Source: Rhodohalobacter barkolensis
GTDB taxonomy: Bacteria; Bacteroidota; Rhodothermia; Balneolales; Balneolaceae
Reading direction: 5' to 3'
Assembly (NCBI RefSeq): GCF_002834295.1
Contig: NZ_PISP01000001.1
Span: 806,001-870,000, forward strand
Length of the DNA: 64,000 nt
The notes beneath the pieces were generated by a model. That model ran no database searches and was not told the origin of the DNA. It saw only the letters and a list, made by a program, of their open reading frames with translations. The position numbers and the translations under genes were made by a program. Below, piece after piece: positions 15,700 to 61,274 of the stretch. Each line of letters starts with the position of its first letter. Within the stretch, counting starts at the first letter, position 1.

Positions 15700-16752
15700 T
15701 TGGCTAAAAAGAGCAGTATAGATCTATTTAAAGAGGCTTTCCGGGAAATAAAAGGGCAAAAAAATATCAAGCCCATTTACTATCTGTATGGTGAAGAAGA
15801 TTTTTTTAAAGATTTGCTCCAGGAAGAAATAGAGAAATTTGTTCCTGACGACCAGAAAGATTTTAATTTTGATCTGATTTACGGTTCAGAATCAAATCCC
15901 TCGAAAGTTCTCAGTATTGCCCGCAGTTACCCGATGATGGCTGAACGAAGGGTAGTCATTGTAAGAGACTTCATTAAGCTTGGTGAAAAAGCTGAGGATG
16001 GTTCACTGAATGAATTTATTTCCTACATCAAGCAGCCAAATCCAACCTGCGTGCTATGTTTGATAGACTCAAGATTCCCGGATAAACGAACAGGACTAGG
16101 TAAGGAACTAAATAATAACGACAAAGTATCAGAGTATAAGTTTGAAGCGGTCCCGGACTATCAGTTGCCAGACTGGATATCCGACTGGACCAAAAATATT
16201 CACAAGAGAGAGATAAATCCTGCTGCTGCACAAGTACTGGCTCAAATGGCCGGCCCGGATTTAAAGCTACTGTCCACTGAATTGGAAAAAGTGTGTACTT
16301 TTGTGGACACCGGCGAACGCATTGAAATAGAGCATATAAAAAAAATTTCCGGCTCATATCGCGATTACAACGTCATAGAGCTTAAAAATGCGGTCGTTAA
16401 CCGGAATTTGAACCAGGCCCTTGGCATATCGGAACAGATATTGCAACACAATAACTACAGCGTTGGAGAAGTAATCAAAACGTTGGGGTTCTTTTACATT
16501 GTGTTTTGTAATATCTGGCAAATATGCAGGCTAACTGAAAAAGGTCTTTCTAAAGATCAGGTTCAGTCCGAACTGGGAATTAAAAGTAACTATATTTTTA
16601 ATGCTCAGTGGAGAGAAGCCTCGCAGTTCAGGCTGGCAGAGATGCCCCGGATATTTGAAGCCTTGCTCGATGCAGATCGGGCTGCAAAAGGCTTCGGCAC
16701 ATTGGATACCTCATCGATATTTCTCCTTCTGCTTAAGCGCATCATCGGCTAA
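15700..16752 (+). CDS. holA: DNA polymerase III subunit delta
   Basis: The delta subunit opens the beta clamp in the clamp loader. The N-terminus KPIYYLYGEEDFFKDLLQEEI is the family's typical first motif, followed by a three-domain AAA+-like layout without a Walker A lysine. The last third has the C-terminal collar helices (LLDADRAAKGFGTLDTSSIFLLLLKRI). The start is a TTG at 15700; no ATG or GTG is available near the family N-terminus. A long-range inverted repeat (TCTGTTTTT at 15636, AAAAACAGA at 15683) lies in the leader. Confidence 0.92.
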   Translation: MAKKSSIDLFKEAFREIKGQKNIKPIYYLYGEEDFFKDLLQEEIEKFVPDDQKDFNFDLIYGSESNPSKVLSIARSYPMMAERRVVIVRDFIKLGEKAEDGSLNEFISYIKQPNPTCVLCLIDSRFPDKRTGLGKELNNNDKVSEYKFEAVPDYQLPDWISDWTKNIHKREINPAAAQVLAQMAGPDLKLLSTELEKVCTFVDTGERIEIEHIKKISGSYRDYNVIELKNAVVNRNLNQALGISEQILQHNNYSVGEVIKTLGFFYIVFCNIWQICRLTEKGLSKDQVQSELGIKSNYIFNAQWREASQFRLAEMPRIFEALLDADRAAKGFGTLDTSSIFLLLLKRIIG

Positions 16753-16810
16753 GTTGTAAATGTATTAGCCCGGTGTTGCGGTAAACAAGCAACCTAAAAG
16801 GGGTAATACC

Positions 16811-17419
16811 ATGAAAGTTTCTACAGTATCCGAACTCAGAAATATGTCCGATGAAGATGTAATGGAACAACTACAATCAGGCGTAGTTGAGGCGTTCGAT
16901 ATCATCGTTCAGAGATACAAAGACAGACTTCATAACTTTTTATATCGATACACACACAATCACGAAGATTGTGAAGATTTGGTACAGGAGACCTTTTTAC
17001 GAGTTTATCGCAGCCGAATGTCGTACGAAAGAATTGCAAAACTTTCTACATGGATGTATACCATCGCGCTAAACCTTGCCAAAAGCATGTACAAGAAGAA
17101 ACAGCGAATGAGCTTGGTTTCTATTCATGCCGATGAATCAGATCCTGATGACCGGGAAATGCAGATTACAGATACTGTAATTCTCCAGGATGAAGAACTT
17201 CATCTTAAATTAAGTGTACAGGAGCTAGAAAGAGCACTCCAGGAACTTAATGACGATTTCCGTGAAGCGGTTATCCTGCGTGATATACAGCAGCTTACTT
17301 ACGAAGAAATTGCAGAAATTACAGACACTGCAATGGGTACTGTAAAATCCAGGATTAATCGTGGAAGACAACAACTACAGGAAATTATCGGCAGTTATGT
17401 GAAGTCGGAAACAATTTAA
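16811..17419 (+). CDS. ECF-type RNA polymerase sigma factor
   Basis: A 202-aa sigma-70 family protein with only regions 2 and 4. Region 2 spans FDIIVQRYKDRLHNFLYRY ... DLVQETFLRVY (about 30-70), and region 4 holds EAVILRDIQQLTYEEIAEI and the HTH GTVKSRINRGRQQL (about 155-190). It resembles RpoE-like envelope-stress sigmas. A small ORF behind it looks like a shortened anti-sigma, with a 15-bp hairpin in between. A GAAAC-N16-CGTA promoter upstream of the pspC-like gene at 24.8 kb is a possible target; that link is inference. Confidence 0.92.
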   Translation: MKVSTVSELRNMSDEDVMEQLQSGVVEAFDIIVQRYKDRLHNFLYRYTHNHEDCEDLVQETFLRVYRSRMSYERIAKLSTWMYTIALNLAKSMYKKKQRMSLVSIHADESDPDDREMQITDTVILQDEELHLKLSVQELERALQELNDDFREAVILRDIQQLTYEEIAEITDTAMGTVKSRINRGRQQLQEIIGSYVKSETI

Positions 17420-17425
17420 AAAAAT

Positions 17426-17468
17426 AGGAGTATGAATTTCTGAACACCAAATAGAAATTTATACTCCT
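17426..17468 (+). promoter_or_regulatory. 15-bp hairpin occluding the start of the anti-sigma-like gene
   Basis: AGGAGTATGAATTTC (17426-17440) pairs with GAAATTTATACTCCT (17454-17468) with 14 Watson-Crick pairs and one G-U, leaving a 13-nt loop. The right arm ends one base before the ATG at 17470. The left arm contains AGGAG followed by a minimal ORF (ATG AAT TTC TGA). There is no T run behind it, so it is more likely to control translation or RNA stability than to terminate transcription. Confidence 0.6.
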
Positions 17469-17469
17469 T

Positions 17470-17769
17470 ATGCTTTCCAAGCCTGAACAAAGCACTATAC
17501 TTACCGAATTTATTCTCGATTTCAGTGATAACAGTTTATCACGGGCCGAACTTTCATCGTTTAAAGAGCTAATGGATCGGTCTGAAATTGTTAGAAGAGA
17601 AGCGATTGGCAGCAAGAGAATTCGAATGGCCTTAGGTTCTATGCCTAAAGTTTCAACCAGCGACCGTTTTGATCAAAAAATGGCATCACGATTTGCTATC
17701 GAACTCCAAAAAGAAGCCAAAGAGCAAAACGCTAAACGAATAGGAGAGACGAAGCTGACAGCAATCTAA
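17470..17769 (+). CDS. Small anti-sigma-like protein without zinc motif or membrane segment
   Basis: The 99-aa product follows the ECF sigma gene by 50 nt. Its middle (LSRAELSSFKELMDRSEIVRR ... RMALGSMPKVSTSDRFDQKMASRF) resembles the end of an anti-sigma domain, where a stretch of the form ...alp.v..p..f...l follows the zinc-binding helix. The HxxxCxxC motif is absent and no transmembrane helix follows, so it would be a soluble regulator or a degenerate partner. The stop overlaps the convergent TPR gene by 4 nt. The anti-sigma role is inferred from position and this weak resemblance. Confidence 0.55.
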   Translation: MLSKPEQSTILTEFILDFSDNSLSRAELSSFKELMDRSEIVRREAIGSKRIRMALGSMPKVSTSDRFDQKMASRFAIELQKEAKEQNAKRIGETKLTAI

Positions 17770-18389
17770 ATTGCGTCAATTTTTTCTTTTAATTCCAAAA
17801 TCTCTTCATGCTCGGGATCAATTTTGAGTCCCTTTTGGATGTACTCCATTGCTTCCTGATTTGCCTTTGCCTGATGTAATATCCAGGCGATGTTGTGATA
17901 GGCATCTGTAAAATTCCAATCTTTTTTTATAGCTTTTTCATAACATTTAGCAGCCTCAATGTGCTGATTCTGCCGCAAAAAGAAATTACCTAAATTGAAA
18001 TGAGAAAGGGCATTCTCATTATTCAAACGGGTTAAATAGTGAAACAGCTCGTGTGCCTCATCAAATTTGCCCAGTGCTTCGTAACAATCAGCCAGATTAT
18101 TTAGTGAAGGGATATGGTTCGGATTGATATCAAGTGCTCTTAAGTAGATATCTACCGCCATATCCGGTTGACCGTTTTCGTGATATGCATTGGCTAAATT
18201 AAACAGAAATGCAACCGTATCCGGAGCAAGATCAAGGGATTTTTCCAAATAATGGATCGCCTCTTCGTACTCACCCAGAAGATAGTGGCCTACACCTAAA
18301 TCATGTATTAATCGCGCGTTATCAGGACTGTTATGGAGTTCTTTTTTAATAAGTTCTATTTGATGTCTTACGTCTGCTTCGTTTTTCAA
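17766..18389 (-). CDS. TPR-repeat protein
   Basis: The 207-aa soluble protein is made almost entirely of five tetratricopeptide repeats (for example ARLIHDLGVGHYLLGEYEEA, then AFLFNLANAYHENGQPDMA and SLNNLADCYEALGKFDEA). Such repeats mediate protein-protein contacts; no enzyme domain or signal peptide is present. Its ATG overlaps the end of the patatin-BamA gene by 4 nt, so the two are coupled and may act together. Confidence 0.85.
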   Translation of the reverse strand: MKNEADVRHQIELIKKELHNSPDNARLIHDLGVGHYLLGEYEEAIHYLEKSLDLAPDTVAFLFNLANAYHENGQPDMAVDIYLRALDINPNHIPSLNNLADCYEALGKFDEAHELFHYLTRLNNENALSHFNLGNFFLRQNQHIEAAKCYEKAIKKDWNFTDAYHNIAWILHQAKANQEAMEYIQKGLKIDPEHEEILELKEKIDAI

Positions 18390-60797: not shown

Positions 60798-61274
60798 CTA
60801 TTCAATGGATCTATCTAACACAAATAGTTGATTCATCAACTGCAGGTCTATTGAATCACGATAAGTTTGGGTTAAACTGTCTTTAAAAGCAGAAATAGTA
60901 AAATATGCCGTATCCGAACAGCGTATTTCATTATCCCATGCCTGATCACAAGCATGGATTACATAAGAAATTGAATCTGCTACATGATTGATTTCCAAAT
61001 TAATACGATGAATATCAATTTCAGATTGTCGATGTTCCCAGTCTACAGATAGTATAAGATCTTCTGCTTCTTGCAAATCATTATTTATACTACTCAAATC
61101 AGGATCTTGCAAACTATCATTAAAATCATTTGAAACGTCACTCGACATTAAAACCTGCTGGTAACTTTCCAAGCCACCAATTGAATTTGGAACATTCGTC
61201 TTGCAACCTACTGACAATAACGTCAGCAACAATACAAAATTGGCGATGCCAAAATATGTTCCTACCCTTTTCAT
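60798..61274 (-). CDS. Small hypothetical lipoprotein
   Basis: The 158-aa product has a signal peptide with lipobox LLSVGC (Cys24) and then a mostly helical, acidic region (around NDLQEAEDLILSVDWEHR) with two cysteines (ACDQAWDNEIRCSD). No family recognised. An exact 7-bp inverted repeat (TGTAGCA/TGCTACA, 61292-61313) lies 18 nt above the ATG. Confidence 0.65.
   Translation of the reverse strand: MKRVGTYFGIANFVLLLTLLSVGCKTNVPNSIGGLESYQQVLMSSDVSNDFNDSLQDPDLSSINNDLQEAEDLILSVDWEHRQSEIDIHRINLEINHVADSISYVIHACDQAWDNEIRCSDTAYFTISAFKDSLTQTYRDSIDLQLMNQLFVLDRSIE

Follow-up and report, generated by a model that had tools for sequence, protein, structure and literature searches.

A start-abutting RNA hairpin between an ECF sigma factor gene and a predicted anti-sigma gene is conserved across the Balneolaceae

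The stretch of DNA analyzed here (the window) comprises 64,000 nucleotides of the 3.6-Mb genome of Rhodohalobacter barkolensis, a member of the Balneolaceae. Its forward strand carries an ECF sigma factor gene (16811-17419; 202 amino acids) whose product matches the Pfam families Sigma70_r2 (2.6e-19) and Sigma70_r4_2 (1.5e-16). Downstream lies ORF2 (17470-17769, forward strand), which, judged by its substitution rates, predicted fold, and structural neighbors, appears to encode a soluble, non-zinc, anti-sigma-like protein of 99 amino acids. The sigma gene is preceded by one (15700-16752) that encodes DNA polymerase III delta domains, and a TPR-repeat gene on the minus strand (17766-18389) converges on ORF2. 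Sequence and fold place the sigma stop codon, TAA, and a 6-nt spacer (17417-17425) directly 5' of a hairpin on the same strand. Its left arm (17426-17442) is purine rich, its apical loop occupies 17443-17451, and its right arm (17452-17468) is pyrimidine rich, with the last base located 1 nt 5' of the ORF2 ATG.

The region from 17400 to 17500 folds with a predicted energy of -23 kcal/mol (z = -4.6), and none of 200 shuffled sequences folds as well. The preliminary description of this DNA proposed a 15-bp stem with one G-U pair that ends one base before the ATG of the second gene. Both the sequence and the fold agree with this end point, and a core with one internal G-U pair is present, but the predicted stem is longer, with 17 pairs (17426-17442 with 17452-17468) that include a second G-U at the loop end. 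Two other elements noted within the left arm are there but carry less weight. The sequence AGGAG (17426-17430) counts for less than it might seem to, since Shine-Dalgarno (SD) sequences are little used in this genome. A three-codon reading frame (ATG AAT TTC TGA, 17432-17443, forward strand) is probably fortuitous. Close relatives, L034 and L037 among them, lack it, its frame and length vary elsewhere in the family, and SD use in the genome is rare, which leaves a role for it as a working element unsupported.

Several other identities for this hairpin were considered and rejected. No Rfam family matches it; the sole hit, to mir-617 on the other strand, scores 21 bits against a gathering score of 80, which is at the level of chance. 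There is no terminator-like site between 16500 and 17900. Among more distant loci of the same class, three (L086-L088) have terminator-like stems after the sigma gene. The hairpin is not a dispersed repeat, since a covariance model built on it (R1) matches it once in the genome, the other matches being its own antisense strand and three with E above 0.2. No phage match points to a mobile element. A palindrome acting at the DNA level is less likely, given that the stem sequences differ between genera and that the sense fold contains 79 G-U pairs versus 37 in the antisense fold, although this strand comparison is a weak test because the two folds are each strand's own best. A promoter for ORF2 in the loop is unsupported, as the only promoter-like site lies inside ORF2 in a scan that omits the promoters of this phylum. 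Read-through of the sigma stop codon or a frameshift into ORF2 can also be set aside, because the frame of ORF2 relative to the sigma gene differs among relatives (offsets of 46, 47, 48, 49, and 50).

The sigma protein was queried against 98 genomes and then against 28 further genomes of the family. Orthologs with at least 62% identity that are followed by a small ORF occur in 71 of 87 family genomes (G000-G086), and the family sigma proteins are 63.6-93.6% identical to that of the window. No ortholog at this level of identity was found in the other 16, one of which (G008) has a fragment at a contig end. One genome has a second copy of the sigma gene (L080; G046:C2:68333-70320) that is 75% identical to the window protein and is accompanied by neither ORF2 nor hairpin. 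In six loci of the Rhodothermales (L134-L137, L146, and L148), what follows this sigma gene is not an anti-sigma gene but one for a small protein with a CPC..C motif, which we take to be DUF971-like. For the fold counts, we omitted L080, L079 (in which ORF2 is 216 nt away), and L099 and L100 (copies of L109 and L101).

A hairpin on the ORF2 start recurs throughout this set. Between the sigma stop codon and the ORF2 ATG, a stem with at least eight pairs and a 3' foot within 6 nt of the ATG was predicted in 67 of the 70 folded family loci, a count that uses ORF2 starts chosen by hand from ORF lists and that may favor a hairpin at L056, L058, L111, and L119, where an upstream in-frame start was skipped. 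The z-score is below -2 in 61 of the 70 (median -4.35). A stricter rule (free energy of at most -8, at least eight pairs, and a foot within 3 nt of the ATG) is passed by 63 of the 70, compared with 13 of 68 stretches of the same length taken 5' of the sigma ATG and 11 of 270 gene starts from the genome of the window (ORFs of at least 100 amino acids in the window and 12 other stretches). The hairpin of the window is beyond chance, because none of these 270 starts has a perfect helix of more than 10 pairs that ends within 3 nt of the ATG.

Removing identical gaps leaves 67 distinct loci, of which 64 retain at least eight pairs with a foot within 6 nt, 58 have z below -2, and nine have weak hairpins with z above -2. 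At least one such hairpin with z below -2 is present in 15 of 16 genera, and the stems in the genus of the window have 14-17 pairs. The hairpin is also kept in loci where the N-terminus of the ORF2 protein has been replaced (L040-L043 and L046-L048). Five loci outside the family with an ATG-started ORF2 gave z-scores of -4.8, -4.5, -1.8, -2.8, and -8.3, with foot-to-ATG distances of 9, 7, 9, 2, and 3 nt, respectively.

Covariation supports the stem most strongly among 22 close relatives of the window locus. Here, nine of the 15 pairs have changed on both sides with pairing kept, 96.1% of cells are paired (at most 51.7% in slid controls), and none of 500 shuffles scores as high on any of five measures. 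In a second group of 15 loci, 84.2% of cells are paired and 16 are doubly changed, values that no shuffle in 500 reaches; the covariation score agrees, but the number of pairs with a double change and the pair types do not exceed the shuffles. The stem of a third group of 11 loci is nearly invariant, and its covariation is not significant (153 of 500 shuffles for cells paired and 106 of 500 for the score). Pair counts were made within groups because the stems do not align across genera with MAFFT. We conclude that the hairpin is a selected RNA structure on the ORF2 start that extends far beyond the window, and the start-occluding hairpin of the preliminary description is upheld to this extent.

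The leader of the sigma gene itself also has a predicted stem in the window (16760-16810; -17.6 kcal/mol), in which GTATTAGCCC pairs with GGGGTAATAC. This stem hides the sigma SD, one base 5' of the ATG, and is lineage-specific. The sigma SD (16798-16803) is among the strongest of the sampled genes (rank 8 of 209). As a second conserved lock the leader hairpin was rejected, with z below -2 in only 15 of 69 family loci and a median of -0.63.

The tight part of the conserved structure is its feet. Among the 67 distinct loci, the distance from the sigma stop codon to the 5' foot has a mode of 7 nt and is at most 14 nt in 62; the stop codon is 18-42 nt from the stem in the other five. The 3' foot lies within 3 nt of the ATG in 62 and directly abuts it (0 nt) in 41. 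The length of the intervening sequence is 27-132 nt, so the feet are nearly constant while the interior is free. Loop inserts have expanded the gap to 146 nt in L049 and 142 nt in L101, and the feet still pair; the insert in L101 forms a long stem by itself. The linear distance from stop to start has a median of 48 nt (range 36-146). Adding only the stop-to-foot and foot-to-ATG segments gives a collapsed distance with a median of 8 nt, which is at most 14 nt in 61 of 67 loci. Thus, the overlap or very short gap of coupled gene pairs is not seen in the linear sequence, and the gap is short only when the hairpin is collapsed.

A stable structure just 3' of a stop codon is also the mark of ribosome termination structures (RTS; PMC7518266), and these hairpins begin within 14 nt of the stop in 62 of 67 loci. 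If the hairpin were such an insulator, it would halt ribosomes that have finished the sigma gene, and ORF2 would be made at a very low level. The stability of the stems in most loci and their usual position 7 nt after the stop, as for the RTS of the published report, fit this explanation. However, insulation does not require the structure to end at the following start codon, and yet the 3' foot does so almost everywhere, including in four of the five loci whose stop codon is 18-42 nt away, where it is still within 3 nt of the ATG. The dN/dS values of 0.10-0.29 that were obtained in nine of 10 ORF2 pairs (those computable) would also be unexpected for a gene that is almost silent. We therefore regard insulation as improbable. 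The hairpin might instead be an RNA processing or stability element that is cut or that protects the sigma message, with its proximity to the ATG being incidental. Long near-perfect stems can be RNase III substrates, and those found here could be. The fixed position of the 3' foot on the ATG and the absence of a terminator-like tail make this explanation very improbable.

ORF2 has no SD core between positions -18 and -5 in any of the 67 distinct loci, whereas one precedes the sigma gene in 52 of 66; the genome itself hardly uses SD sequences. An SD core precedes 33 of 210 ORFs from this genome, versus 10% of random positions, and the mean anti-SD signal is slight. The common anti-SD was used in these comparisons because a pattern search for the 16S 3' end found nothing. 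Elsewhere in the window, a 159-codon ORF at 61274 on the minus strand has an SD-like AAGGGG and a start-abutting stem (-10.1 kcal/mol). Slight SD use fits other Bacteroidota, where mRNA structure and particular bases upstream modulate initiation; the available portions of these reports do not name the Balneolaceae (PMC6847099, PMC9976891). In such a cell, a 17-pair stem that ends at position -2 should be a strong block on initiation.

The apical region of the hairpin has a recurrent feature of its own. UGAA occurs in its 5' half in 43 of 70 family loci, versus 5.9 expected from letter shuffles, and in 10 of 16 genera, whose stems otherwise differ. This could be the mark of a conditional lock, in which ORF2 is kept off as the default state and, under some condition, a protein or small RNA recognizes the apical loop and opens or stabilizes the hairpin, with no involvement of the ribosomes that finish the sigma gene. 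The UGAA count overstates the case for such a trans-acting factor because related loci are not independent. The 14-17-pair stems do seem stronger than plain masking would need. On the other side, there is no known partner, and the loci with loop inserts of about 100 nt (L049 and L101) keep the feet and not the loop. The lock is unlikely to be a simple RNA thermometer, as warming from 37 C to 65 C barely changes the predicted probability that positions -15 to -1 are unpaired in the window (0.07 and 0.09, respectively). Overall, a conditional lock seems to us possible but unlikely.

ORF2 is a real gene under purifying selection, as judged from its dN/dS range and from a value of 0.13 against its closest relative, L032. 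In contrast to the sigma factor, its protein is poorly conserved. A search with the protein matched 50 of 146 genomes at an E-value of 0.01, and ORF2 was located by position in the others. The window protein has no match among Pfam or NCBIfam families and no related sequence in the PDB. The zf-HC2 family is touched by six of 47 ORF2 proteins, with a best E-value of 0.0031.

An AlphaFold2 model from 16 sequences (pLDDT 83.9, pTM 0.51) predicts helices at residues 6-19, 25-37, 39-57, and 65-96, the three-helix bundle and fourth helix of a class I anti-sigma domain, and in 71 family loci ORF2 follows the sigma ortholog. The six best structural neighbors of the model (VIA) are all anti-sigma domains (Z from 7.4 to 4.7), among them ChrR (Z = 7.4 over 51 residues at 2.1 A), RslA (6.6), RsiW (5.3), MucA (4.8), and RskA (4.8). 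Among the matched structures are 4nqw and 2z2s. With Z below 8 and a best Foldseek E-value of 0.43, these similarities are support for an anti-sigma fold and not proof. The second protein had been described as resembling the tail of an anti-sigma domain; the likeness to this class holds, but all four helices are predicted. ORF2 is likely to encode an inhibitor with a complete four-helix class I anti-sigma domain, as far as the model can tell. For such a domain, contacts of helix 1 with sigma4 and of helix 4 with sigma2 have been described (PMC7406223), and the ORF2 protein would presumably bind its sigma factor.

Class I domains such as RsiW, ChrR, RslA, RskA, RseA, and MucA share with the window protein a four-helix fold, predicted in this case, and a location beside an ECF sigma gene. 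The window protein differs from them in having no zinc motif, membrane helix, or Pfam match. The zinc motif Hx3Cx2C is absent from it and occurs by pattern in one of 71 family proteins (L053). No membrane helix was found among the 71, whose highest 19-residue hydropathy is 0.78. The proposed lack of zinc ligands and membrane helix was therefore correct, but such soluble partners are common and are not the departure from the usual design that had been suggested. Values of 1.85-2.71, fit for a membrane helix, were found in eight post-sigma proteins of Rhodothermales and Ignavibacteria, and from these sequences the helix has probably been lost in the Balneolaceae form. Some members of the genus have also lost the first helices, while the stretch around LPxxKAxxxFDxKMAAxFAxELExE and the hairpin remain. 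In 10 of 71 loci (L040-L043, L046-L048, and L052-L054), the N-terminal helices are replaced by a CxCxxC segment, with the helix-4 stretch and hairpin kept. It is possible that a metal or redox site was newly acquired with this segment.

That the hairpin is a cis-acting RNA lock on ORF2 translation is well supported, and its position and stability suggest that it would block ORF2 initiation. The folded hairpin would pair the 15-17 bases just 5' of the ATG and leave no free landing place for a 30S subunit, and therefore ORF2 would scarcely be translated on its own. A ribosome at the sigma stop codon, about 7 nt 5' of the stem, would cover the base of the left arm. The bases beside the ORF2 ATG would then be freed, and either the terminating ribosome or a fresh subunit could start translation there. 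The amount of ORF2 made would be tied to sigma output, at or below the sigma level. Simulating such a ribosome by blocking 12 nt after the stop codon raises the unpaired probability at positions -6 to -1 from 0.17 to 0.95 in the window and from a mean of 0.15 to 0.53 across 67 loci. Because this block frees the bases next to the start, we rank coupling to sigma termination first, and we give even chances to the full proposal that RNA locks ORF2 and that most of its translation is carried out by ribosomes that terminate on the sigma gene or follows in their wake. The terminating ribosome would then open the lock and may affect the sigma/anti-sigma ratio, as the preliminary description had suggested.

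The lack of a hairpin after the second sigma copy that has no ORF2 (L080) is in favor of coupling, as are the conservation and covariation of the stem on the ORF2 start, the excess of G-U pairs in the sense fold, the missing SD core before ORF2, the short distance from stop to stem, and the retention of the hairpin where the protein N-terminus was replaced. Against it, only 22 of 51 locked loci exceed an unpaired probability of 0.6 at positions -6 to -1 when the ribosome block is applied. The gap of about 50 nt is also long by the distance rule from Escherichia coli, where most or all re-initiation was lost at +38 nt in the natural pairs covered by the accessible part of that study (PMC10666635). 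In a synthetic operon, stable structure just after a stop codon inhibited re-initiation, an effect opposite to coupling in the portion of the report available (PMC7518266). Furthermore, the coupling mechanism does not need the conserved UGAA, and it must contend with the distant stop codons in five of 67 loci, the weak hairpins in nine of 67, and the gaps in covariation in the groups of 15 and 11.

The short collapsed distance would be explained differently by a ribosome shunt. With the stem folded, the sigma stop and the ORF2 ATG are only about 8 nt apart, and a terminated ribosome might cross the closed foot without unfolding the stem and re-initiate on the ATG. To our knowledge, ribosome shunting is known only from viral RNAs in eukaryotes. 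The freedom of the sequence between the feet, large loop inserts included, fits a shunt, and the short ORFs of plant pararetroviruses have stop codons 7 and 8 nt 5' of a stable stem, with re-initiation beyond its far foot (PMC5902531). Those viruses differ in that their shunt involves a scanning 40S subunit and, in the parts of that account available, an unstructured landing sequence after the stem. In addition, the collapsed distance still exceeds 25 nt in four of 67 loci, and opening of the stem base by a terminating ribosome accounts for the same spacing. A shunt is quite improbable.

Translational coupling occurs by RNA unfolding at phage f1 genes VII-IX, MS2 coat-lysis, and E. coli rpmI-rplT, where a hairpin likewise masks the start of the downstream gene (PMC12548453). 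In f1 a long hairpin ends just 5' of the gene IX start, as it does here before ORF2, and the rpmI-rplT spacing (+52 nt) is similar. Unlike these cases, as far as the available text describes them, the present hairpin lies wholly 3' of the upstream stop codon, its downstream gene has no SD, and its geometry is kept across a family while the sequence turns over. The RTS of PMC7518266 share a stable structure right after the stop but represent a general, genome-wide insulating tendency in the portion seen of that work, whereas this hairpin is fixed on the next start codon. In the split ribosome-binding sites of T4 genes 25 and 38, an intervening hairpin also alters the effective distance to the start, but there it brings an upstream SD near the ATG (PMC3014915, available in part). 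Here there is no strong SD signal 5' of the foot at that distance, and it is the sigma stop that comes near. The Streptomyces SigR-RsrA operon resembles our proposal in controlling the sigma/anti-sigma ratio of a two-gene operon at the level of translation. It differs in that the stop and start codons overlap (ATGA) and the anti-sigma gene has its own ribosome-binding site and is made in excess, and the available portion of the report describes no hairpin (PMC5472188).

A literature search that most subscription papers lay outside found no report on a hairpin in a sigma/anti-sigma gap or on Rhodohalobacter sigma factors. At a single operon boundary, in a genome that makes little use of SD sequences in translation, a family-wide RNA structure has been retained while its sequence was replaced almost completely. 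It would offer a natural, testable case of ribosomes crossing structured gaps between genes, and its conserved feet and free interior allow models of masking, coupling, and shunting to be separated. If the shunt were true, conservation would be confined to the feet, with hairpin sequence and length left free, in a family that hardly uses Shine-Dalgarno sequences. If coupling operates as proposed, it is RNA folding, and neither codon overlap nor a ribosome-binding site for each gene, that would set the sigma/anti-sigma ratio.
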